IMG/VR virus record: IMGVR_UViG_3300023284_000581
Coordinates: 1-52,582 of that record
Direction: 5' to 3' (one strand)
Length of the DNA stretch: 52,582 nucleotides
From: a virus
Below, one piece after another: positions 14,597 to 45,388 of the stretch. The notes under the pieces were generated by a model. That model saw only the letters and a list, made by a program, of their open reading frames with translations, searched no databases and was not told the DNA's origin. Numbering within the stretch: position 1 is the stretch's first letter; each line of letters starts with the position of its first letter. The position numbers and the translations under genes were made by a program.

Positions 14597-15406
14597 ATGG
14601 CGCCCAAGGCAACTGTTGCTGAAATGATTATTGAGCTTAGGGCCGACACTAAACGGCTCAGGGCCGATTTCAAGAAAGCGCGCAGGCTGTCCGACGATGA
14701 AGCCAAGAAGATCGGCAAGGGGTTTCGCGATCAGTTCGGCGAGACGATGGGCCAGATAGGCCAGATTCGGGCTGTGACAGGAGAGATCGCCAATGTTGCC
14801 AACGGACTTACCGAAATGGGCAAGAAGCTGCGCATGGTTGAAAGTGATGCTGAAGGAATCCTGGTTGTCTTCGAGTCTATGCCATTTGGCATCGGGCAAG
14901 CGGTCAGTTCGGTTAAGGGCTTGTTCAATGAATTGTCCGGGGCCGCCGAACAAGCGGAGAGGCTGGCAAAATTCCGGCTCGGTCAATCAATAGAGGGGCG
15001 CAGGACTGCATCAAGGGACGCGATCGCCCGGGGTCTGAGCAACAGACTCGCGTTGGCAACCGCCAAGACCCCGCAGGCCCGGCAGGCTATCCAGAACCAG
15101 CAACAAGTAGAAACCCTGAGGTCTCAATTCAGGAGGATCGGGGGCTTTGATCCGTTCAGTTCGAGGCAAGACGACAAGTTGCCAGCGCAGTTCCAGGCAG
15201 CGCTTGCCTCGCTAAAGGAGCTGCAGGGGCTTGCCGGTGGCGGTGGGGCTGGCGGTGTGCCAGGGGCCCGAACCATCAGCCTGTCGCGCACGGCATTTGG
15301 CGGGCCCGGCGGCGCTGAAATGGGCAAGCCGATTAACGAGCGACAAGGCACGCGGATCATCGAACTCCTCGAACAAGGGAACACCCAGGGGGCGACAGCA
15401 GGATAA
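14597..15406 (+). CDS. Tail tape measure protein, short
   Basis: A 269-residue protein in the tape-measure slot. It is helical and charged at the N-terminus (LRADTKRLRADFKKARRLSD), with a hydrophobic central segment (IGQAVSSVKGLFNELSGAAE) and a Gly-rich stretch near 215-235. Tape measures scale about 0.15 nm of tail per residue, so this predicts a very short tail, about 40 nm. A shortened or split tape measure is the alternative. The stop overlaps the next ATG. Confidence 0.6.
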   Translation: MAPKATVAEMIIELRADTKRLRADFKKARRLSDDEAKKIGKGFRDQFGETMGQIGQIRAVTGEIANVANGLTEMGKKLRMVESDAEGILVVFESMPFGIGQAVSSVKGLFNELSGAAEQAERLAKFRLGQSIEGRRTASRDAIARGLSNRLALATAKTPQARQAIQNQQQVETLRSQFRRIGGFDPFSSRQDDKLPAQFQAALASLKELQGLAGGGGAGGVPGARTISLSRTAFGGPGGAEMGKPINERQGTRIIELLEQGNTQGATAG

Positions 15407-18154: not shown

Positions 18155-19369
18155 ATGCCTTTCGACTTTGTATGGAATGGAACGGGTGACGCCGTTAATG
18201 GCGATGTTAAAAAGGCCAAGAACTGGGACGGCATCAGCATCGTCAATGCAACCTATCGGTGGGTAGCTAGTGCGTCTGGTACTAATGAGTTTTTCGTTGA
18301 GTTAGCCGGCGGCGGGGATCCGGGCATCTCCGAGCAACCCGACTTTGTGCAGGAACTAGACCCGGTAGACGGGCAAACCTACACCGACATGCCAGAGGGC
18401 ACACTGGGGGCCCTCGCGGTTGGTGAGTTTGATTATGGCGATAACGATACGCTGGGGTTCTCTACTGTCTATGTTCGATTGACCGACACGGCTACGCCGG
18501 ACCCCGACAATCAGAACGTCGATCACGTCCAATTCCTTGACGTGCCCTATGCCTCGCAAAACTGGGACGCAGGTAACGGCTCGCAAGCCATGAGCACCAA
18601 TCTGCAGGCGCTGACGGCCCTGACCTTTGTGGATGTGTCAATCGCCCAGGATTTCGCCGGGGCCATTGGATTGCTAAACGAACCTCTACGGTTCAAGGTT
18701 TCGGGCGTCCTGACCATCGGCTATCTCAAAACGGACGGCACCACGCCCACCGGATCCGGCCGTCTGCACATGGACATCCAGGACTCCAATTGCACGGTTA
18801 AGATTGAGCGGTCATCTGTCTCGCCAACAGATTCAGGATTCAACCCGATCCGGTTACTGGTCAGAAATTCATCGACCAAGATTTACCAGCGCGGCGGTTC
18901 GGCTTCTTACGGCGTGAATCCCGGCGACATCTTTACCGCAAGCCTTCTAAGCGTAAGCGGTGACATTGAGGCGGCGTTTGCGCGCGTCGGTTATCCGGGT
19001 GGCCAGGCCAATATCACGATCACTGATACCGATGCATGGGCCAATGGCGAGATCGTGGCCTACGACGGGCCCAGCGGCACACTCAACATCTTCGAGGGAA
19101 TCTATCGACTGTTAGGCCAAGGCGTGTTTGGCACCGCCAACATCCGCGAGACCGGCTTGTTTGAATTGTCGTCAACAGGCAATCACAGCAGCGCCACAAT
19201 AAACATTCATGACGCTACGCTCGATACCTTCGGCCTGGACGATCAGCCTATCACGATTGGCACCATCGACCTGAAGTCGTCGGGTGCCATCTTTAGAGAA
19301 TCCAAGAGTATTACCGTTACCACGCTGACCCGAAGCTACACGGGCAAGCGCGAGGTTTCGGTATCGTAA
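18155..19369 (+). CDS. Putative tail fibre / receptor-binding protein
   Basis: A 404-residue protein opening WNGTGDAVNGDVKKAKNWDG, then repeated beta-strand blocks rich in Thr, Ser and Gly, including a later region (ANITITDTDAWANGEIVAYD, ATINIHDATLDTFG) typical of beta-helix fibres. It is the last large gene before the lysis and terminator region, the usual place of host-recognition fibres. No catalytic site seen. Confidence 0.58.
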   Translation: MPFDFVWNGTGDAVNGDVKKAKNWDGISIVNATYRWVASASGTNEFFVELAGGGDPGISEQPDFVQELDPVDGQTYTDMPEGTLGALAVGEFDYGDNDTLGFSTVYVRLTDTATPDPDNQNVDHVQFLDVPYASQNWDAGNGSQAMSTNLQALTALTFVDVSIAQDFAGAIGLLNEPLRFKVSGVLTIGYLKTDGTTPTGSGRLHMDIQDSNCTVKIERSSVSPTDSGFNPIRLLVRNSSTKIYQRGGSASYGVNPGDIFTASLLSVSGDIEAAFARVGYPGGQANITITDTDAWANGEIVAYDGPSGTLNIFEGIYRLLGQGVFGTANIRETGLFELSSTGNHSSATINIHDATLDTFGLDDQPITIGTIDLKSSGAIFRESKSITVTTLTRSYTGKREVSVS

Positions 19370-19413
19370 TTTGTGACTCGGAAAATGGACGCATTTAACG
19401 AGAGGTTTTTAGT

Positions 19414-19614
19414 ATGTCCGATCAAGATCAACTTGACAGGATGGAAAGGCAACTTACATCTATCCATAAATACATCAACGGCCATAACGGCGCCCCCGGA
19501 CTAAAGGTGCGCGTCGATAGACTGGAGCGATTCCAGGCCACCGCATCTAAGTTGATTTGGCTAATTATCGTTGTGGGCATCACCAATATCGCGGTGTTGA
19601 TCCTGACGCGATAG
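19414..19614 (+). CDS. XhlA-like membrane protein (holin partner)
   Basis: A 66-residue protein: an amphipathic helix (DRMERQLTSIHKYI), a charged linker (VRVDRLERFQATASK) and a C-terminal membrane helix (LIWLIIVVGITNIAVLI). This matches the XhlA/hemolysin-type small lysis protein. GAGAGG site. It ends the late operon directly before a strong terminator. Confidence 0.68.
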   Translation: MSDQDQLDRMERQLTSIHKYINGHNGAPGLKVRVDRLERFQATASKLIWLIIVVGITNIAVLILTR

Positions 19615-19632
19615 CCCGTTTTCTCCCCTCCG

Positions 19633-19669
19633 GGAGTCGTTTGCCACGACCGGCAAACGGCTCCTTTTT
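19633..19669 (+). terminator. Strong intrinsic terminator of the late operon
   Basis: A 13-bp stem (GGAGTCGTTTGCC with GGCAAACGGCTCC, one G-U pair) closes a 6-nt loop and is followed by five T. It stands 18 nt after the last late gene. Confidence 0.92.
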
Positions 19670-19677
19670 GCTATAAT
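19669..19677 (+). promoter_or_regulatory. Extended -10 TGC-TATAAT
   Basis: It matches the extended -10 form, with no -35. Its transcript would run at once into the second hairpin, so it may be fortuitous or give only short RNAs. Confidence 0.25.
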
Positions 19678-19706
19678 AGCCCTATCCGCCGATAGGCGGG
19701 GCTTTT
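19678..19706 (+). terminator. Second, tandem terminator-like hairpin
   Basis: CCGCC-GATA-GGCGG is extended by AGCC/GGCT after a four-base bulge and followed by TTTTA. Together with the hairpin just upstream it insulates the late operon. Confidence 0.6.
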
Positions 19707-19750
19707 ATATGCGCCCCTTGTCATCCCAGTCCAAATCCGCCACAATGCCA

Positions 19751-19835
19751 GTGTTACACCCTTCAACTTGAATATCTGAACGGCCGTGCTCCGCCGGTGA
19801 CTTTTCTTCGGAAGGGTGTAACACATCGGCGGAGC
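19751..19835 (+). other. Interleaved inverted repeats (a-b-a'-b'), pseudoknot or operator element
   Basis: Arm a, GTGTTACACCCTTC (19751-19764), pairs perfectly with a' (19811-19824). Arm b, GCTCCGCCG (19788-19796), pairs perfectly with b' (19827-19835). The order a-b-a'-b' describes an RNA pseudoknot or two mutually exclusive hairpins. It ends 21 nt before the start of the next small gene. The core GTTACACC also occurs in the operator region at 22,294, so a DNA-binding role for a/a' is an alternative. Confidence 0.7.
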
Positions 19836-19856
19836 CATTGCGCATTGAGGGGCGTG

Positions 19857-20087
19857 ATGGATAAGCAAGAGGCTGAAATTAGGCGAATCAAGCGCAAGCT
19901 CGCTCCTGTTAAAGCGTGTCTCGATGAAGCGCTCAGGGGCCTGCCTGTCGGTACGGCGGTTGTTGAAGGTGAGCATTATCGATACTTCATTGTCCGCAAG
20001 GATCTGAAAGACTTTTACGGTACGCCGTTGGCCGACGCGCTCCGTATCCAATTGCTGGCGATGCGCGACGACTTGGCGGGAAAATAG
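19857..20087 (+). CDS. Small hypothetical protein behind a structured leader
   Basis: A 76-residue soluble protein: basic helix IRRIKRKLAPVKACLDEALR, then beta strands (VVEGEHYRYFIVRK) and a helix (PLADALRIQLLAMRDDL). A GAGGGG site precedes ATG 19857. A GTG 20 codons upstream would place arms a' and b' inside the gene. Unknown family. Its stop codon touches the three-way-junction element. Confidence 0.6.
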   Translation: MDKQEAEIRRIKRKLAPVKACLDEALRGLPVGTAVVEGEHYRYFIVRKDLKDFYGTPLADALRIQLLAMRDDLAGK

Positions 20088-20168
20088 GCAGCCCACTGAA
20101 CAGCCGCGGCTACTGTCGCGGCAACCCAAGCAGGACGTCCCCTGCAAAGGTTTTGTTCATGGGCTGCC
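20087..20168. ncRNA. Three-way-junction element between convergent genes
   Basis: P1 pairs 20087-20102 with 20154-20168: 15 bp with one bulged C at 20096. Inside it are P2 (GCCGCG/CGCGGC, 20103-20108 with 20117-20122) and P3 (GCAGG/CCTGC, 20130-20134 with 20141-20145). P2 abuts P1. The element exactly fills the space between the + stop and the minus stop. It could be a processed RNA, an unusual two-way terminator (T-rich on both sides) or a small mobile element with 15-bp terminal inverted repeats. Confidence 0.55.
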
Positions 20169-20906
20169 TTATTTCTTATGGGCTATTTTGATGATTTTAC
20201 AATCAACAAGGGATATGGAGTACGCCCGCCACCTGTCGCCTATTCGATGATTTACCTTTTTTATCGTACCTTCAAGAATAATTAAATCACCTTTTTTGAC
20301 ATTGGCTAATTGATCAATGTATTTGGTTGAGATCAAGCATTCAAGATCGCAGTGAATTCCTCTTCCTGAAATACTCAGAGATGGTGGCTTGCTGAATGCC
20401 GGCCAATTTGCTTTAAGTGGATTGCCTTTCAGGTAAAAGCCTTTTCCGATCACCCCTCGACTATTGACTTTCGATGCACCCCCTTTTGTATGGAACGTGA
20501 CTCTAATCGCTTTGCCTATCGACTTCATCTTTTTTTCTTGTGAATCGATCCGGTCTTGATAAATATCATTGGGGCTTTGGCCTACAGGTGGCAATACGCC
20601 AGTGGGAAAGGCCTTTGCCAATGCTTCAAACGATGGGATAATGCCCTCTTTCAGGGGTGCGGGAATCGGTTGCTTGCCGCCTCCCAGCGCCTTCACCTGC
20701 GCCACCAGCTTGGCCACCTGCGCCCGCAGCCGCGCGTTCTCAGCCTTGAGCTTAGCCAGTTCGCCCTTGGTGTCCTTGGTCTTGCCCTTATTGAGGATCG
20801 CCTGCGCCGCCCTTTGCCGCGCGGCCCGCGCCTCGACTTCGGCGGGGGTGTCGGCCAGGGTGGCGGTGGCGAGGATCATTCCTATTAGAATTGCCCGGGT
20901 AATCAT
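20169..20906 (-). CDS. Secreted coiled-coil / OB-fold-like protein
   Basis: A 245-residue protein with a signal peptide (ITRAILIGMILATATLADTP). An Ala/Lys/Leu coiled coil follows (KLKAENARLRAQVAKLVAQV at about 52-71). A C-terminal domain follows, with VKKGDLIILEGTIKKVNHRI and a strand set like an OB-fold (tRNA_anti-like) domain. Minus strand, in the control region, so probably a lysogeny-expressed moron acting in the periplasm or outside the cell. Substrate unknown. Confidence 0.6.
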   Translation of the reverse strand: MITRAILIGMILATATLADTPAEVEARAARQRAAQAILNKGKTKDTKGELAKLKAENARLRAQVAKLVAQVKALGGGKQPIPAPLKEGIIPSFEALAKAFPTGVLPPVGQSPNDIYQDRIDSQEKKMKSIGKAIRVTFHTKGGASKVNSRGVIGKGFYLKGNPLKANWPAFSKPPSLSISGRGIHCDLECLISTKYIDQLANVKKGDLIILEGTIKKVNHRIGDRWRAYSISLVDCKIIKIAHKK

Positions 20907-21591: not shown

Positions 21592-21658
21592 AAAAGTCCA
21601 CAACCTCTTAAATCCAATTGCCGTCACAATTTGGCGCACACTTGAGTTATCGACAGCT

Positions 21659-21667
21659 TGTTATAAT
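21659..21667 (+). promoter_or_regulatory. Extended -10 promoter TGT-TATAAT
   Basis: A perfect TATAAT preceded by TGT, about 53 nt upstream of the next + start codon. No clear -35. It likely drives the small gene that follows. Confidence 0.5.
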
Positions 21668-21719
21668 ATTCGTGGCCATACCGGGACGGCCACCATTTCC
21701 AATCCGGTGGAGACAACTC

Positions 21720-21947
21720 ATGCGTGATACTTACCCCGTTGTACTCGTGCCCAATCCCCAGCCAGACGACCAAGGCCAACCCTTTTGCGTCATTCGGGAC
21801 CACGACGCCGAAACGATTTGGGTCTGGCGCGATGCGCCACCTGACCGCGTTCGCCAGGGGTTTGAGGCGATTGGGGTCAACTGCCCCTGGGCGGTCGTTT
21901 CGGAGTTCCAATCGTACTTCCAGTACCAACCTCCTGGGGTGGTTTAG
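21720..21947 (+). CDS. Small hypothetical protein
   Basis: A 75-residue protein with GGTGGAG before the ATG. The compact sequence DAETIWVWRDAPPDRVRQGF, with paired Trp, suggests a small folded domain. It overlaps the 3' end of the minus-strand gene by 71 nt, tail to tail. Unknown family. Confidence 0.55.
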   Translation: MRDTYPVVLVPNPQPDDQGQPFCVIRDHDAETIWVWRDAPPDRVRQGFEAIGVNCPWAVVSEFQSYFQYQPPGVV

Positions 21948-22239: not shown

Positions 22240-22299
22240 TTGTGTAATTCTATACACAAATTGTGTACAGAACTGCTTGCATTGTGTAATAAGTTACAC
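22240..22299. promoter_or_regulatory. Operator array of TTGTGTA half-sites
   Basis: Half-sites TTGTGTA/TACACAA occur at 22240, 22253 (inverted), 22261 and 22282. They form a perfect 20-bp palindrome (22240-22259) and an overlapping 15-bp one (22253-22267). GTGTAA-TAAG-TTACAC (22284-22299) lies between the -35 and -10 of the regulator promoter. This layout fits cooperative binding by a ribbon-helix-helix dimer that represses itself. Confidence 0.68.
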
Positions 22300-28567: not shown

Positions 28568-28693
28568 TGGTGGCTGGTAGCTCAGTTGGTAGAGCGGCTG
28601 CGGAAGCAGTGCCACCAGAAGGACGCCTGGAACAGTCGCGAATGGTTCAGGCTATCGACTTCTTAAGCGCAGGTTCGAGTCCTGCCCAGCCCA
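28568..28693 (+). tRNA. tRNA-like element without an anticodon loop
   Basis: Parts of a tRNA are clear. The acceptor pairs GGCTGG (28572-28577) with CCAGCC (28686-28691). There is a D-arm GCTC-AGTTGGTA-GAGC and a T-arm GCAGG-TTCGAGT-CCTGC followed by acceptor and A73, with no CCA. Where the anticodon arm belongs stands GCTGC-GGAA-GCAGT with a GNRA-like four-base loop. About 58 nt follow that form a long arm (AGAAG/CTTCT enclosing CCTG(g)AAC/GTTCAGG). TGGTGGC (28568) can also pair with GCCACCA (28611). It is either a decayed or interrupted tRNA gene or a tRNA mimic. Confidence 0.5.
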
Positions 28694-31765: not shown

Positions 31766-33463
31766 ATGAAACCACCACAAAACAATCTGTTTCGTTACGA
31801 ACGACCGTCCGCCACCAGCTTGATCGATGACGATCTCGGGATGGTCGTGGACAACTTCGCCGGTGGCGGTGGGGCATCGACCGGAATCGAGGCCGCAATC
31901 GGCCGGCCCTGTGACCTGGCGGTTAATCACGACCCGCAGGCGATCGCGATGCATGAGGTCAATCATCCGGACACACGCCACCTTTGCGAGTCCGTTTGGG
32001 ATATTGACCCCCTGAAGGTCACGGGCGGACGCACGGTCGGTCTCGCTTGGTTTAGCCCGGATTGCACCTACTTCTCCAAGGCGCGCGGGGGCAAGCCACA
32101 ACGCGATGAGGCCAAGAAGGTACGGGGCCTGGCGTGGGTTGTGATCAAGTGGGCCAAGGCGGTTAAGCCGCGCGTGATCATGCTGGAGAACGTCGAGGAA
32201 TTCCGACACTGGGGCCCGCTCAAGCGTGATGGCCAGCCATGCAAAAGGCGCCGTGGCCAGACGTTTGATCAATGGGTCGGTGCTCTTCGCGCTGAAGGCT
32301 ATGAGGTCGATTGGAAAGAACTTCGTGCCTGTGATTATGGCGCCCCAACAATCCGCAAGCGTCTGTTCCTGATCGCTCGTTGCGATGGCCGGCCGATCGT
32401 CTGGCCCGCCGCGACACATGGTAAGGCGCCATTACTTCCCTATCGCACGGCGGCGGAGTGCATCGACTGGTCACTTCCCTGCCCCTCGATATTCGAACGC
32501 AGGCGCCCGCTGGTCGAAAAAACACTCACTCGAATCGCGACGGGAATCCGGCGCTATGTGATCGATGCCCAAGAGCCGTTCATCGTCACTTGCAATCACG
32601 GCGGCGATTGGTTCCGTGGCCAGGGTATTTCCGAGCCGTTCAAGACCGTGACGGGATCGCGCGATGCGCACGGCCTGGTCTCTCCCATCTTGAGCCAATA
32701 CCACAGCCAGAAGGGCGATGAGTCCCGCTGCGGATCTCCCAATGATCCGATCAACACACTGGACACCCAGAATCGTTTCGGCCTGGTGTCGGCGTTTCTT
32801 GCCAAGCATTTCGGCGGTGCGGTTGGCGCGAAAGTAACAAGGCCATTCCCGACGATCACCCAGCGCGGGGTTCAGAACCAGGTCACGACGGCGTACTTGA
32901 ATCGCATCTGTCAGAATGGGTCCAAGGGAAAACGTGTCAGCGATGTTCGGGATCCACTGACCACGATCACCAGCAAGAATGAGCATTGTGTCACCGCTGC
33001 TTTCCTCTCCCACCAGCGCGGTTCAAATACGGGCGGCGGCAACGGCAATCTCGACAAGCCGCTAAACGCTCTCACCGCCGGCGGCAATCACATCGCGGAG
33101 GTCCGCGCGTTCCTGATCCAGTATTACTCGCACGGTTCGGGCAAGACCGGCAGGGCGATCGACAAGCCGGCTCCAACGATCCCGACAAAGCATCGTTTGG
33201 GACTGGTCACCATCAGCGGGATCGAATATCAGATCATTGACATCGGCATGCGCATGTTGCAGCCGCGCGAATTGTTCCGATGCCAGGGCTTCCCCGATGA
33301 CTACGTGATCGATCCGATCAATCCAGCAACCAGCCGGGCATTCACCAAGACGTTGCAGATCAAGATGTGCGGCAATTCAGTATCGCCGCAAATGTCCGAG
33401 GCGCTGGTCCGCGCGAACGTCGCGGCACCTGAGAATTATTTCGCGAAGGGAGCGGTAGCGTGA
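31766..33463 (+). CDS. DNA (cytosine-5) methyltransferase
   Basis: A 565-residue enzyme. Motif I is NFAGGGGASTGIEAAIG (30-46), motif IV SPDCTYFSKA has catalytic Cys100, motif VI is ENVEEF (141-146), and RELFRCQGFPDDY and CGNSVSP (536-541) lie near the end. The region at about 260-480, expected to read the target, is built of several similar blocks (FKTVTGSRDAHGLVSPIL, FPTITQRGVQNQVTTAYL, LTTITSKNEHCVTAAFL, APTIPTKHRLGLVTI). No partner restriction enzyme is adjacent, so it probably protects phage DNA. The 90 bp upstream holds only a GC-rich stretch. Confidence 0.9.
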   Translation: MKPPQNNLFRYERPSATSLIDDDLGMVVDNFAGGGGASTGIEAAIGRPCDLAVNHDPQAIAMHEVNHPDTRHLCESVWDIDPLKVTGGRTVGLAWFSPDCTYFSKARGGKPQRDEAKKVRGLAWVVIKWAKAVKPRVIMLENVEEFRHWGPLKRDGQPCKRRRGQTFDQWVGALRAEGYEVDWKELRACDYGAPTIRKRLFLIARCDGRPIVWPAATHGKAPLLPYRTAAECIDWSLPCPSIFERRRPLVEKTLTRIATGIRRYVIDAQEPFIVTCNHGGDWFRGQGISEPFKTVTGSRDAHGLVSPILSQYHSQKGDESRCGSPNDPINTLDTQNRFGLVSAFLAKHFGGAVGAKVTRPFPTITQRGVQNQVTTAYLNRICQNGSKGKRVSDVRDPLTTITSKNEHCVTAAFLSHQRGSNTGGGNGNLDKPLNALTAGGNHIAEVRAFLIQYYSHGSGKTGRAIDKPAPTIPTKHRLGLVTISGIEYQIIDIGMRMLQPRELFRCQGFPDDYVIDPINPATSRAFTKTLQIKMCGNSVSPQMSEALVRANVAAPENYFAKGAVA

Positions 33464-33705
33464 TCACCACCGATGAAATCGAAACCCGTGTATTCCAGAT
33501 GATCCGCGAGCAACTGGGCCAACCAGAATTCGAGGTCCACCGCGAGTTGAATTTCGGGCTCCTGGGCTTTGACAGCATGGACGAACTGGAGTTGTTGATT
33601 GAATACGAGGATGAATTCGATCTGGAGATCCCCGAGAGCGTTTCGGTCAAGTGGCGTACGCCCGGCGATGTGATCGACTGGCTGGAGAAGGAGCTGAGCA
33701 AGTGA
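33460..33705 (+). CDS. Acyl carrier protein
   Basis: An 81-residue protein with the ACP layout: helix EIETRVFQMIREQL, then LLGFDSMDELELLIEYEDEF, where Ser39 in DSM is the phosphopantetheine site, then IPESVSVKWRTPGDVIDWLE. Size and acidity fit. It starts at GTG within the cytosine methyltransferase stop and ends in the adenine methyltransferase start. It would be loaded by the host holo-ACP synthase. Role unknown: hijack of host lipid metabolism, or acyl supply for a modification, are open possibilities. Confidence 0.82.
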   Translation: MITTDEIETRVFQMIREQLGQPEFEVHRELNFGLLGFDSMDELELLIEYEDEFDLEIPESVSVKWRTPGDVIDWLEKELSK

Positions 33706-34976
33706 AGTTGAAAGCGCCCTTCCCATATTTTGGCGGCAAGAAAGCTGTGGCCGAGCTGGTCTGGAACCGCCTGGGTGACGTGCGCAATTACATCGAACCG
33801 TTCGCTGGGTCGATCGCGGTTTTACTATTGCGGCCGCACAAGCAGAAGGTCGAGACGATCAACGACATCGATCCGTACATCTCGAATTTCTGGCGCTCGG
33901 TCAAGATGGACAAGGATGCGGTTGTGAATTATTGCGACTGGCCGGTGATCGAAACCGATCTGCACGCTCGCCACCGGTACTTGGTGCTCTCCGATGACGC
34001 GGTTGAATTCCGCCGGAGGATGCGAACCGACCCCGATTACTACGATCCGAAGATCGCCGGCTGGTGGGTGTGGGGCCAATGCATGTGGATCGGTGCCGGT
34101 TGGTGTGCTAATGATCCGAGCGCTCGTGCTACGCCTGAAACCAATTTGCGCCCGCATCTGAGTTCGGACGGCAGGGGCCAGGGGATGCAGCGCGGTCCCA
34201 AGCAGGAGATCCCGTCGAATTGCGCTAAGGGCGTTCACAAGAAGCGGCCGGCCATCGGCGATAGCGCTGGTGACAAAGGCCTACTGCAGAATCTTCCCGA
34301 TGTTTCGGGTCATCGCGGAGGTACCGGGCGAGGGATCCTGACGAGCAAGAAGCCAATGTTGTCCGGGAAGGGTGTTGGCAAGGGTGTTCATGCCGAAGGC
34401 CTGCGCGATGGCTGCCGTCCGCAGCTCGCGGATCAACGCGCTCGCGGACGAGGTATTCACAGCAACGACGCAATGGAAGAATGCGAGGCTCGTCACGAAT
34501 GGCTGTCGAGATGGCTGGGCTCGCTGCAGGATCGGTTGAGATCCGTACGGACCTGCTCGGGCGATTGGAAGCGCGTTTGTTCATCGCCCAGCGTCACGAC
34601 CCGCATCGGCATGACCGGATTGTTTATGGATCCGCCGTACAAGCACACGGTCCAGGATGGTGAAGGCGACCAGGTGAAGAACCGGGATGCCCGACTGTAC
34701 GGCCATGATGCCTCGACGGTCGCGCAGGAATGTCAGGACTACTGCATCGAACGTGGCGAAGACCCGCTGATGCGAATCGCGCTGTGCGGCCTCGAGGGAG
34801 AACACGAGCAGCTTGAGAAACACGGTTGGGAAGTCGTCGCCTGGAAGTCTCACGGCGGTTACGGCAATCGATCAGTCAACGGGAACGACAACAAAGAACG
34901 CGAGCGCATCTGGTTTAGCCCGCATTGCCTAAGCGGATTGACTGCCGAAGCGCCACTATTTTCGGAGCAATCATGA
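33702..34976 (+). CDS. DNA adenine methyltransferase, D12 class
   Basis: A 424-residue protein starting at GTG after GGAGAAGGAG, overlapping the ACP stop. FPYFGGKKAVAELVW and YIEPFAGSIAVLL give the SAM site. FMDPPYKHTV near residue 310 gives the DPPY catalytic motif. Between them lies a long Gly/Arg/Lys-rich insert (about 150-260), unusual for the family, perhaps a target-reading or flexible loop. Methylates N6 of adenine in phage or host DNA. Confidence 0.85.
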   Translation: MKLKAPFPYFGGKKAVAELVWNRLGDVRNYIEPFAGSIAVLLLRPHKQKVETINDIDPYISNFWRSVKMDKDAVVNYCDWPVIETDLHARHRYLVLSDDAVEFRRRMRTDPDYYDPKIAGWWVWGQCMWIGAGWCANDPSARATPETNLRPHLSSDGRGQGMQRGPKQEIPSNCAKGVHKKRPAIGDSAGDKGLLQNLPDVSGHRGGTGRGILTSKKPMLSGKGVGKGVHAEGLRDGCRPQLADQRARGRGIHSNDAMEECEARHEWLSRWLGSLQDRLRSVRTCSGDWKRVCSSPSVTTRIGMTGLFMDPPYKHTVQDGEGDQVKNRDARLYGHDASTVAQECQDYCIERGEDPLMRIALCGLEGEHEQLEKHGWEVVAWKSHGGYGNRSVNGNDNKERERIWFSPHCLSGLTAEAPLFSEQS

Positions 34977-39203: not shown

Positions 39204-40209
39204 ATGGACGACCGATAGTTGGAATCCGATCCGCGCACGCCGCAAGGATACGGGCAAGATCGGCTGGCATTGCGAGCGAGTGAGCGATGGCTGTAAAAAC
39301 TGCTACGCCGCGACGTTCAACCAGCGCATGCTGCCCAACGGCGGGACCGGTCTGGATTACACCAGGCAGAAGCGCGACGAGGTTGAGATTTACCTGGACG
39401 AAGAGGTCTTGTTACAGCCGCTCGGGTGGAAGAAACCGCGCAAGGTCTTCGTCTGCTCGATGACTGATCTGTTCGGCGAGTTCGTTCCGTTTGAATTGGT
39501 CGATCACGTAATGGCCGTGATGGCGCTTTGCCCCGAGCATACGTTTCAGGTGTTGACCAAGCGGCCGGAGCGGTCGGTGGAGCATCTGAAGAAACGAGTC
39601 GCCGATGGCTGGGACACGCCCACTGGAAACTTCCATGACACCGTTGAAGCGAACATGACCGATGGATTTTTCAAAGCGTACAACGGGGTATTCAACAAGG
39701 GCGGTGACGAATACCACAGCAACGGAACGTACTTGGGAACCAGCCCCGGCTATGTCGAACATGAGATGCCGAACATATTGCCCAACGTCCAGATCGGCAC
39801 GTCGGCCGAAGATCAACCGACGATCAATGAACGGGCTGTCCACCTACGCGAGTTGTCCAACGCCGGTTGGTTCACCTGGTTCAGCCTCGAACCGTTGATC
39901 GATCAGATCCACTTGCCCGATCAGTGCTACCACGATCCGGATGTTGCCGCGTCGTGCTGGATTGACTGGATCGTTGTCGGCGGCGAGTCCGGCCGGCCGC
40001 GGCCGTGCAACATCGATTGGATCCGTTCGATCGTCCAGCAGTGCCGGGCCGCTGGCGTTCCAGTTTTCGTCAAGCAGCTCGGGACGATTTCGCGCAGAGT
40101 CTCGGGCGGTGTGACCCGTGATGTTCGGATGAAGAAGAAGGGCGGCCAGCTTAAAGACTTCCCGGCCGATCTCCGCGTCCGCGAATTTCCAAAGGCGGTG
40201 AGGATATGA
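39184..40209 (+). CDS. DUF5131 (phage Gp37/Gp68) protein
   Basis: A 341-residue protein: KTSIEWTTDSWNPIRAR, Cys30, Cys37 and Cys40 in HCERVSDGCKNCYA, then KPRKVFVCSMTDLFGEFVPF and FQVLTKRPERSVEHLKKR, with WIVVGGESGRPRPCNIDWIR late. The Cys triad is reminiscent of radical SAM or Fe-S enzymes, and the family is suspected to act on nucleic acid or nucleotides; chemistry unproven. GTG 39184 has GAAAGG seven bases upstream. ATG at 39178 is too close to that site. Confidence 0.82.
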   Translation: MSKTSIEWTTDSWNPIRARRKDTGKIGWHCERVSDGCKNCYAATFNQRMLPNGGTGLDYTRQKRDEVEIYLDEEVLLQPLGWKKPRKVFVCSMTDLFGEFVPFELVDHVMAVMALCPEHTFQVLTKRPERSVEHLKKRVADGWDTPTGNFHDTVEANMTDGFFKAYNGVFNKGGDEYHSNGTYLGTSPGYVEHEMPNILPNVQIGTSAEDQPTINERAVHLRELSNAGWFTWFSLEPLIDQIHLPDQCYHDPDVAASCWIDWIVVGGESGRPRPCNIDWIRSIVQQCRAAGVPVFVKQLGTISRRVSGGVTRDVRMKKKGGQLKDFPADLRVREFPKAVRI

Positions 40210-41888
40210 GCAATAAACCATGCCCCAAGTGCGGCACGTTTTCGATGACGGAAGCCGAATGCGAGCAGGGCGTTTGTTACGACTGTCGGCGGAAGGCCCC
40301 CGCGCCCGCCGAAACGACCGAGCAAGCGTATGGCATAAAGCTGGCCGAACTGGCCGATGCCCACCACGAATTGGCAAACGATTACGAGCGCGCCGGATTC
40401 ATCGATGGAACCGTTGCTCTTCGGAAAGTCGAGAACCTGCTGTACGCGATTCTGCAAGGCCGGGAGGCCGTGGCCATTCTGCCGCCGCTTGCTGAGGTAG
40501 ACCCCACGCCCAGCGAACTAAAGCCGTGCCCGTTTTGCGGCGGCGAAGCAGCGGACCCATGTGAAGATGGCGACCTTAACATTGGCGACGGGTGGCTGGT
40601 CTCCTGCGAGGCGTGTGGCGCTAACGTTGGCAGTTTCATTTGCATGGACGGCAGCACTGAGCCCGAAGAACTGCGGGCTAGCGCCATCGCCGCATGGAAC
40701 ACTCGCAATGAATTGGGGGGCGATAAGCAGGTGCCCATAGCGGTTCAAGCCGCTGGGTCTGTAGAGCACCACCCATCGACCATTCCAAGGTCATCGGGTT
40801 ATCAGACTCCGCCTGTCCGCCCCACCCCCGCGCCCGCCGATGCGGCTGTTGCTGAACAGTTGCGAGCGACCGCCGAATGTTTTGCAGCACTTGAGTTGTC
40901 GCAGAACACCACCGTTCAGGCGGTAGGCATCGAATGCGGCGAACATCTGGAAAAGCTCACCGCCATCTTGGCGAAGCAGGTTACCCAGCCCGCCGATGCG
41001 GCAGAAGTAGTCGGCCTAATTGTCACCGGCAAGGATGGTGAGTTTAGTTGGGACGACAACATTTGGGACGCGAATGATCGCGACGGCGCTCAAGAAATAT
41101 TAGACGAGTTGGATGCAAATCGCCCGCAGGATGGTCCGCACCAAATCATCGAGTTTTACAGCAGGCCGTCACAACCCAGCGAGAGCCTCCGCACCGCTGC
41201 CGACATTGAAGCGGAAACACCGATTGCTGTTGGCGCAACCACCCAGCCCACCCCCGCCGCGCGCGATGCGGCAGCGGTGGCAGAAGCTATCACGACCATT
41301 GAAAACGGTGCGTGGTTTAGCGGAGACTGCGCGGCGATTAAGGAAGCGTGGGTAGTTATCACCGCCATCCTCGCCACCCCCGCGCCCGCCAGCGCGGCAG
41401 CGGTGGACGAAAATGTAGCTGGACAAATCGTAACGCAGATGACGACGTATCGGTCGGATGATCGCAAGGCAAATGTGGCGCTCGTTGCCGCGATGCTTAC
41501 CGGTTACCGTTCCGCCATCTTGAATAAGCACGCCACCGACAGCGCGGGGCGGGTTGAACAAATCGATGCCATGCTGGACGGATTGCTCGGTGTGTTTGCC
41601 GCCGCGGGTTTTCCTGAACCAATCGAAGGGTTCAAGGAGCGCCCGCAGGACGTTAAGCATTGCGTTCGTGATGCGCTGAAAGAACTCGCCGACCTGCGGG
41701 GGCGATGCGAGTGGCTGGAGGGGGGTTATGAAAAGTCCAAGAAAGTGTCGGCGGGGCTCATCCGCATGATGGCGGAAGACATCGCTAAAGCAAGGGGCGT
41801 CAATCTCGCAAAGGTACTTACCCAATACGAGGAAGCCGCCCTTGCACTCCTGCCCGGCGGCGCGAAGGAGCCCACCGATGCCACTTAG
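40206..41888 (+). CDS. Modular zinc-ribbon (Lar-like) early protein
   Basis: A 560-residue protein of joined small modules. Residues 1-30 form a CxxC...CxxC ribbon (CPKCG, CYDCRR). Residues about 100-170 match the Lar restriction-alleviation type (LKPCPFCGGEA, VSCEACGANVG, SAIAAWNTR). Further blocks follow, separated by near-identical Pro/Ala linkers (PTPAPADAAVAE, QPADAAEV, PTPAARDAAAVAE, TPAPASAAAV). A helical end follows (VKHCVRDALKELADLRGRCE). It looks like several early genes fused. Protection from host restriction is possible. Confidence 0.65.
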   Translation: MSNKPCPKCGTFSMTEAECEQGVCYDCRRKAPAPAETTEQAYGIKLAELADAHHELANDYERAGFIDGTVALRKVENLLYAILQGREAVAILPPLAEVDPTPSELKPCPFCGGEAADPCEDGDLNIGDGWLVSCEACGANVGSFICMDGSTEPEELRASAIAAWNTRNELGGDKQVPIAVQAAGSVEHHPSTIPRSSGYQTPPVRPTPAPADAAVAEQLRATAECFAALELSQNTTVQAVGIECGEHLEKLTAILAKQVTQPADAAEVVGLIVTGKDGEFSWDDNIWDANDRDGAQEILDELDANRPQDGPHQIIEFYSRPSQPSESLRTAADIEAETPIAVGATTQPTPAARDAAAVAEAITTIENGAWFSGDCAAIKEAWVVITAILATPAPASAAAVDENVAGQIVTQMTTYRSDDRKANVALVAAMLTGYRSAILNKHATDSAGRVEQIDAMLDGLLGVFAAAGFPEPIEGFKERPQDVKHCVRDALKELADLRGRCEWLEGGYEKSKKVSAGLIRMMAEDIAKARGVNLAKVLTQYEEAALALLPGGAKEPTDAT

Positions 41889-44649: not shown

Positions 44650-44805
44650 ATGGACAAGAAGGGCAACATGAAGATAATCCAACTGAAGCCAAGCGAACAG
44701 GCACTGGAATTCGCCCAGTGGATGCGGCGCGTCCGCGAATTGGAGAAGCAAATGTTTCGATCATTTCTCTTGACCGAAGATCAGATTAAACGCCCTAACC
44801 ATTGA
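44650..44805 (+). CDS. Small hypothetical protein (51 residues)
   Basis: A 51-residue helical, charged protein (LKPSEQALEFAQWMRRVREL, EKQMFRSFLLTEDQ). Supported by a TATAAT box spaced for leaderless transcription and by ordinary codon use. Its stop lies inside the -35 box of the next promoter. Unknown. Confidence 0.5.
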   Translation: MDKKGNMKIIQLKPSEQALEFAQWMRRVRELEKQMFRSFLLTEDQIKRPNH

Positions 44806-44831
44806 CATCCATCCCGCGCGCTCTGTACGAT
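44802..44831 (+). promoter_or_regulatory. Promoter of the lipoprotein gene
   Basis: Consensus TTGACA, an 18-bp spacer and TACGAT. The expected start, about 44838, is the first base of the hairpin leader. Confidence 0.62.
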
Positions 44832-44837
44832 TCAGAC

Positions 44838-44890
44838 GTGTAGCACCGGCAGGGAGACCTGCCCATGATGTCAATACGCCGGTGCTACAC
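44838..44890 (+). promoter_or_regulatory. 5' hairpin enclosing the ribosome site and start codon
   Basis: GTGTAGCACCGG (44838-44849) pairs perfectly with CCGGTGCTACAC (44879-44890). Nested inside, GGCAGG-GAGA-CCTGCC (44848-44863) holds the AGGGAG ribosome site, and the ATG at 44865 lies in the outer loop. Folding should silence translation until opened, for example by a protein, temperature or a ligand. The arms could also be a DNA operator. Confidence 0.6.
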
Positions 44891-45308
44891 AACACCGCAC
44901 AAGAACCATCGCGTCAATCTACTCGGCGCGGTGGTTCTTTTTACTTCAATTCTGACCAGCTGCTCGACCTTGACCGTCTACGATTATGCCGAGGCCGGCA
45001 CGGTCATAGCGCTGGTATCGACCCGGGCCACCGTCGATGAGGCGCAGCAGGTCAAGGATCTGGCCGCCGAGCTTGAAGCGGTCGCCCATCTTGATCGCGC
45101 CGCCATCGAGAAGGTCTACGACAGCGGGGTCGCGCGGATCCGCAACGACAAGCTGCGCCTCGCGCTCGAAAAGCTCAAGCCCAAGCTGATCAGCCAGATC
45201 GTCAAGCTCGCTCAGCGCAACCCGCTGGTGCAGATCCGCGTCCATGTTGTTGAGGCCGCCCAGGGAATTCAAAGCGGCTGCACGATCTATATCACGGCGA
45301 AAAGTTAA
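44865..45308 (+). CDS. Lipoprotein, possible outer spanin
   Basis: A 147-residue protein with a signal peptide and lipobox (LLGAVVLFTSILTSCSTL, lipidated Cys about 33). The mature part is helical (VDEAQQVKDLAAELEAVAHL, LRLALEKLKPKLISQIVKLA) and ends with a beta/Cys segment. Position with a membrane protein and a lipase suggests outer-membrane spanin in lysis. Its length is more than usual for spanins. Expression appears gated by the leader hairpin. Confidence 0.55.
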   Translation: MMSIRRCYTTPHKNHRVNLLGAVVLFTSILTSCSTLTVYDYAEAGTVIALVSTRATVDEAQQVKDLAAELEAVAHLDRAAIEKVYDSGVARIRNDKLRLALEKLKPKLISQIVKLAQRNPLVQIRVHVVEAAQGIQSGCTIYITAKS

Positions 45309-45314
45309 ACGATT

Positions 45315-45388
45315 GCAGTGTGGAGAAGCGGTCTATCTCGTCGCGCTCATAACGCGAATGTCGCAGGTTCGAATCCTGTCACTGCTAT
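45315..45388 (+). tRNA. tRNA-Met (CAT)
   Basis: A full cloverleaf: acceptor GCAGTG/CACTGC with a 1:72 T-T mismatch, D-arm GAGA...TCTC, anticodon arm TCGCG-CTCATAA-CGCGA with CAT, variable ATGTC, T-arm GCAGG-TTCGAAT-CCTGT, A73. CCA is not encoded. The anticodon stem lacks the three G-C pairs of initiators, so elongator Met, or Ile2 if the C is lysidinylated. Confidence 0.87.

Follow-up and report, generated by a model that had tools for sequence, protein, structure and literature searches.

The translational operator of rpsO (S15) adopts mutually exclusive leader folds, one of which is a pseudoknot, beside the ribosome site. In start-site switching of the pyrC type, a few 5' nucleotides decide how the 5' end of the mRNA pairs, and the 5' end itself covers the Shine-Dalgarno (SD) sequence. 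Among type I toxin mRNAs, leaders such as that of aapA3 from Helicobacter pylori contain metastable anti-SD hairpins with alternative partners (PMC6733600). The leader of phage T4 gene 32 has a pseudoknot upstream of the gene with a proposed role in translational control, and the pseudoknot operator of rpsO is mentioned in the same work (PMC3014915). Few leader RNAs with rival folds have been described from phages other than those of model hosts, and how Planctomycetota phages control their genes is poorly understood.

The window analysed here is the whole 52,582-nt stretch of IMGVR_UViG_3300023284_000581, a 52.6-kb virus record with head, replication, integrase and terminase genes. The phage is unclassified. 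Its host is probably a planctomycete, because the terminase resembles those of prophages of Singulisphaera, Phycisphaeraceae and other Planctomycetota (~53-57% identity). A pair of neighbouring DNA methyltransferase genes, together with a Lar-like match for restriction alleviation (31766-34976 and 40206-41888), hints at anti-restriction functions. Elsewhere, an Rfam tRNA match of 39.9 bits (28571-28693) has normal acceptor, D and T arms, carries ~50 extra nt in the anticodon/variable region and was not called by ARAGORN; it is possibly an interrupted or repurposed tRNA.

The element of interest, E1, lies on the plus strand and consists of two interleaved inverted repeats. Arm a (19751-19764, GTGTTACACCCTTC), which is 5'-terminal in the predicted RNA, is complementary at 14/14 positions to arm a' (19811-19824, GAAGGGTGTAACAC), the proposed switching strand. 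The second repeat has a perfect 9-bp core (19788-19796 / 19827-19835, GCTCCGCCG / CGGCGGAGC). The preliminary description had reported perfect 14-bp and 9-bp inverted repeats in the order a-b-a'-b' within 85 nt; the same arms were found again, and b/b' was seen to extend to a helix of 12 pairs (19788-19799 / 19824-19835, GCTCCGCCGGTG / CATCGGCGGAGC) that includes one G-U pair in plus-strand RNA. Arm b' abuts a', and loop 1 (19765-19787) separates a from b by 23 nt. Downstream, a 76-aa orphan gene (19857-20087, plus strand, ATG at 19857) encodes a charged sequence without a membrane segment and with a predicted helix-strand-strand-helix arrangement, for which Pfam gave no match and a PHROG search only a chance-level one.

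The repeats of E1 are not random. At a distance limit of 110 nt, the window has no 14-bp inverted repeat other than a/a', and no interleaved pair of perfect repeats ranks above E1, whose summed arm length of 23 was reached in 0/200 dinucleotide shuffles of the whole window (shuffle maximum 22). With the 14-bp repeat taken as given, the probability that a helix matching b/b' in quality interleaves with it is ~0.005. A third interleaved candidate on the minus strand (21620-21726) did not stand out from shuffles, for which 0.2 are expected per strand, and was dropped.

The earlier placement of E1 after two terminators and ahead of a small gene agrees with the features found on the plus strand. 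An intrinsic-terminator-like hairpin (19632-19665) closes the upstream tail/holin-like operon and is followed by a second, weaker one (19685-19700). A promoter-like site, TTGTCA-17-CACAAT (19718-19746, plus strand), predicts a +1 at ~19751-19753, with arm a beginning 5 nt past the -10 box. The match is weak when taken alone, one being expected per region. Across the window, 2/19 promoter-like sites have a perfect 13-14-bp arm at +1 with a score of at least 33, namely those of E1 and of a second element, E2, described below. Such a score was reached at 6 of the 1915 promoter-like sites on 7.6 Mb of control strands (4 distinct) and at none in 40 shuffles. Perfect arms at +1 are thus rare in controls, and E1 and E2 are therefore most simply regarded as transcript 5' ends. 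In L268 and L190, a promoter-associated 5' hairpin that lies antisense to coding genes was left out of account.

Folding of the predicted RNA (19751 to 19862) gave two mutually exclusive structures of near-equal energy, A at -45.8 and B at -45.1 kcal/mol, a small gap that lies within the error of the energy model. Fold A combines a/a' as a 5'-terminal hairpin with a 9-bp start-site hairpin (19835-19860, plus strand), in which the SD sequence GAGGGG (19847-19852) is mostly in the loop and the AUG is in the 3' arm. Fold B is one long hairpin comprising b, loop 2, a C-G-closed UUCG, the 5' half of a', a 6-nt bulge and b'; arm a is thereby freed and pairs with the ribosome-binding site UUGAGGGGCGUGAU (19845-19858, plus strand). 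The AUG is paired in fold A as well as in fold B, which counts against a switch.

Arms a and a' each have a second partner. Taken as 19753-19766, arm a pairs at 13/14 positions with the ribosome-binding site when G-U is allowed, a match expected by chance in 0.5-2% of position controls and 0.3-0.6% of shuffles. This complementarity is moderate evidence for a switch, because the energy of the duplex is equalled by 9% of random 22-mers from the window. For a', the alternative is a C(UUCG)G hairpin of 7 pairs (19800-19817, plus strand), formed by loop 2 (19800-19806) and the 5' half of a' (19811-19817), the half for which a/a' competes. No other C(UUCG)G hairpin of at least 7 pairs occurs in the window, and this one is placed precisely between b and a', as fold B requires. 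Both the UUCG loop and the G-U pair of b/b' suit RNA of the plus strand, which is the strand of the gene.

The predicted balance between the folds depends steeply on the exact 5' end. Full transcripts beginning at 19751 are predicted to be 98% in fold A, those beginning at 19752-19753 about half in A and half in B, and those from 19754 on more than 97% in fold B. The near-complete occupancy of A at 19751 (98-99%) speaks against a switch, and all these differences are small beside the error of the energy model. An RNA thermometer was rejected, since the balance is nearly constant from 10 to 50 C. The preliminary description had proposed a pseudoknot or a two-state switch: the assignment to RNA stands, and the two-state half has gained support from the dual complementarity, the UUCG hairpin and two folds within 1 kcal/mol of one another. 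By prediction, E1 has what characterises a two-state leader, exclusive folds that share a strand and of which one covers the ribosome site.

E1 is tentatively interpreted, with real doubt attached, as the 5' leader of a one-gene mRNA that acts as a translational on/off switch for the 76-aa gene. RNA polymerase would start at or within arm a, giving a leader RNA of ~104-106 nt. In state A, a/a' would form the 5'-terminal hairpin and leave the SD sequence mostly in the downstream loop, so that the gene would be on or poised. In state B, the 5' half of a' would instead pair with loop 2, giving a C(UUCG)G hairpin that stacks on b/b', and the freed arm a would cover the SD sequence and start codon through UUGAGGGGCGUGAU, turning the gene off. 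Arm a would thus serve as the anti-SD strand, a' as its decoy partner and switching strand, and loop 2 together with b/b' as the competitor for a'; the interleaved layout would make the two states mutually exclusive. Transcription from the promoter, switching of the RNA and the sign of the effect are all parts that we infer. The trigger might be a ligand, a protein (for instance the gene product itself), the precise position of the start or the timing of folding during transcription. A more specific proposal, that E1 is an undescribed phage riboregulator in which the exact start site picks the leader fold and hence whether arm a covers the ribosome site, is doubtful; there, with a/a' and the UUCG hairpin on b/b' evenly poised, the first three transcribed bases would decide which of them prevails. 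Should a switch be borne out, E1 would represent a compact means of controlling translation, built from strands with two partners each and with a balance that may depend on the start site.

The scan that yielded E1 also found E2 (44801-44890, plus strand). Its arm a is 9 bp (44801-44809/44867-44875) and its arm b 13 bp (44838-44850/44878-44890), the latter starting at the predicted +1, 7 nt after a promoter-like site TTGACA-18-TACGAT (44802-44831). Arm a of E2 overlaps the -35 box and is therefore missing from the RNA of E2's own promoter. That RNA is predicted to consist of a 5' hairpin and, after it, a 15-bp terminator-like hairpin (44901-44939, plus strand; z -7.0) that precedes a U run. 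The segment with the promoter, the 13-bp 5' hairpin and the terminator-like hairpin (44838-44945) also takes in the start of a lipoprotein-like ORF (44865-45308, lipobox LTSC), and it is possibly a small RNA or an attenuator. Between this ORF and a gene for a class 3 lipase is a tRNA-Met (CAT) gene (45313-45388), which contains the listed GTG start of the lipase ORF (45318). Homology between E1 and E2 was not adopted, as their alignment score was not clearly above shuffles (P 0.07-0.2), and only a shared architecture is claimed. With E2 also promoter-linked and interleaved, this phage may employ leaders of this kind repeatedly.

Several other explanations of E1 were weighed against the switch. 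E1 does have the two crossing helices of complementary arms that define an H-type pseudoknot, and both helices are non-random. It is less likely than the switch that a/a' and b/b' form together as a static leader pseudoknot, in which the contiguous a'b' strand would be a long helix that, alone or protein-bound, limits ribosome access or blocks a nuclease without any switching. A rough additive estimate for the pseudoknot with the start-site hairpin, -49.6 kcal/mol, is below both folds A and B, which allows this state and counts against the switch, but climbs to -45.1 when the 5' end is 19753. For a conventional H-type arrangement, in which the linker must cross a 14-bp stem, the 0-2 nt between a' and b' are too few; the pseudoknot would therefore need a continuous a'b' strand and the 23-nt loop spanning ~26 bp, a strained arrangement with non-standard stacking. 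It would also leave the ribosome-site and UUCG-hairpin partners of a and a' as coincidences. Stem-loops at the 5' ends of stable mRNAs protect against decay, and a simpler reading holds that only the 5'-terminal a/a' hairpin matters, shielding the mRNA 5' end, with b/b' and the anti-SD match incidental. E2 fits this account in having a perfect hairpin at its predicted +1 and an interleaving that alone has a ~7% chance of arising; in E1, by contrast, the interleaving of b/b' has a chance of ~0.5%, and neither the UUCG hairpin nor the anti-SD match is explained, which makes the account rather unlikely.

At the level of DNA, a phage repressor could bind a near-palindromic GTGTNNCACC at +1 together with its downstream inverted copy and loop the DNA between them. 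Four of the five GTGTNNCACC sites of the window (4/5) are indeed arms of E1 and E2, the arms are located at +1, and the centre spacings are 64 and 43 bp, two helical turns apart. Against this, GTGTNNCACC and CCATYGCG...GCGYGRTGG are words common to E1 and E2 that were picked post hoc, and the match between arms within each element includes positions that differ between E1 and E2; matching at such positions is required by base pairing only and therefore argues against protein binding. The preliminary description had supported an operator by noting that GTTACACC is shared by arm a and the operator of the ribbon-helix-helix (RHH) regulator. This link proved to be chance: GTTACACC is an 8-mer, of which any would be expected in ~1.6 copies in the window, so that its copy at 22293 near the RHH gene places no operator word at the regulator above chance, and the 14-bp arm a has no other copy in the window at up to 3 mismatches. 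An operator pair is regarded as improbable. That E1 is without function, a chance repeat pair or a relic, is likewise improbable. The window was searched for its most striking feature and conservation of E1 cannot be shown, both of which favour the absence of function, but the shuffle and positional controls speak against it.

To look for covariation, relatives were sought in viral contigs (by single-protein scans), 50 viral records, genome contigs and 392 Planctomycetota genomes, as well as with alignments of the AAA protein and of the terminase and with DNA patterns. In these collections E1, the 76-aa gene, the tail protein at 15406 and the E2 gene had no homologue, and no relatives were found of the tail region or of the genes beside E1. 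The pattern GTGTTACACC...GGTGTAACAC gave one match (L002), which lies inside coding sequence and was discarded as chance. Layouts resembling that of E1 in other phages (L266, L069) could not be equated with it. That of L069 (9873-9981) is an interleaved a-b-a'-b' pair of 17 + 19 bp with abutting a' and b' and several G-U pairs, directly upstream of the AAA-protein gene. The a'-b' linker lengths of high-scoring interleaved pairs in other phages are evenly spread, and there is therefore no sign of a general class.

Covariance models of Rfam 15 gave nothing beyond chance for E1 or E2. The initial view that no described element has this layout thus holds as far as Rfam is concerned; it does not hold for the mechanism, as exclusive leader folds with an anti-SD strand are already known. 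E1 is not assigned to any of the systems compared. It differs from the rpsO operator in having no ribosomal protein gene and no sequence or Rfam match. The T4 gene 32 leader is, like E1, a phage leader with two crossing helices (PMC3014915). The stems of E1 are much longer, there is almost no a'-b' linker, a and a' have second partners, and the downstream gene is not an SSB gene, which sets E1 apart from a gene 32-type operator. Leaders of the aapA3 type resemble E1 in setting folds that hide the ribosome site against others, in competition during transcription (PMC6733600). In E1, unlike in those leaders, the anti-SD strand is the 5' arm, and a', itself SD-like, captures it. The small hydrophobic toxin and antisense RNA of a type I toxin-antitoxin system were not found at E1: the 76-aa product has no sign of being a toxin, and no antisense RNA was seen, nor any minus-strand promoter-like site in 19350-20250. 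E1 is like pyrC in that the predicted pairing of the 5' end is set by a few 5' nucleotides, and unlike it in that, where start-site use is itself a prediction, the SD-covering 5' end could be diverted by a'.
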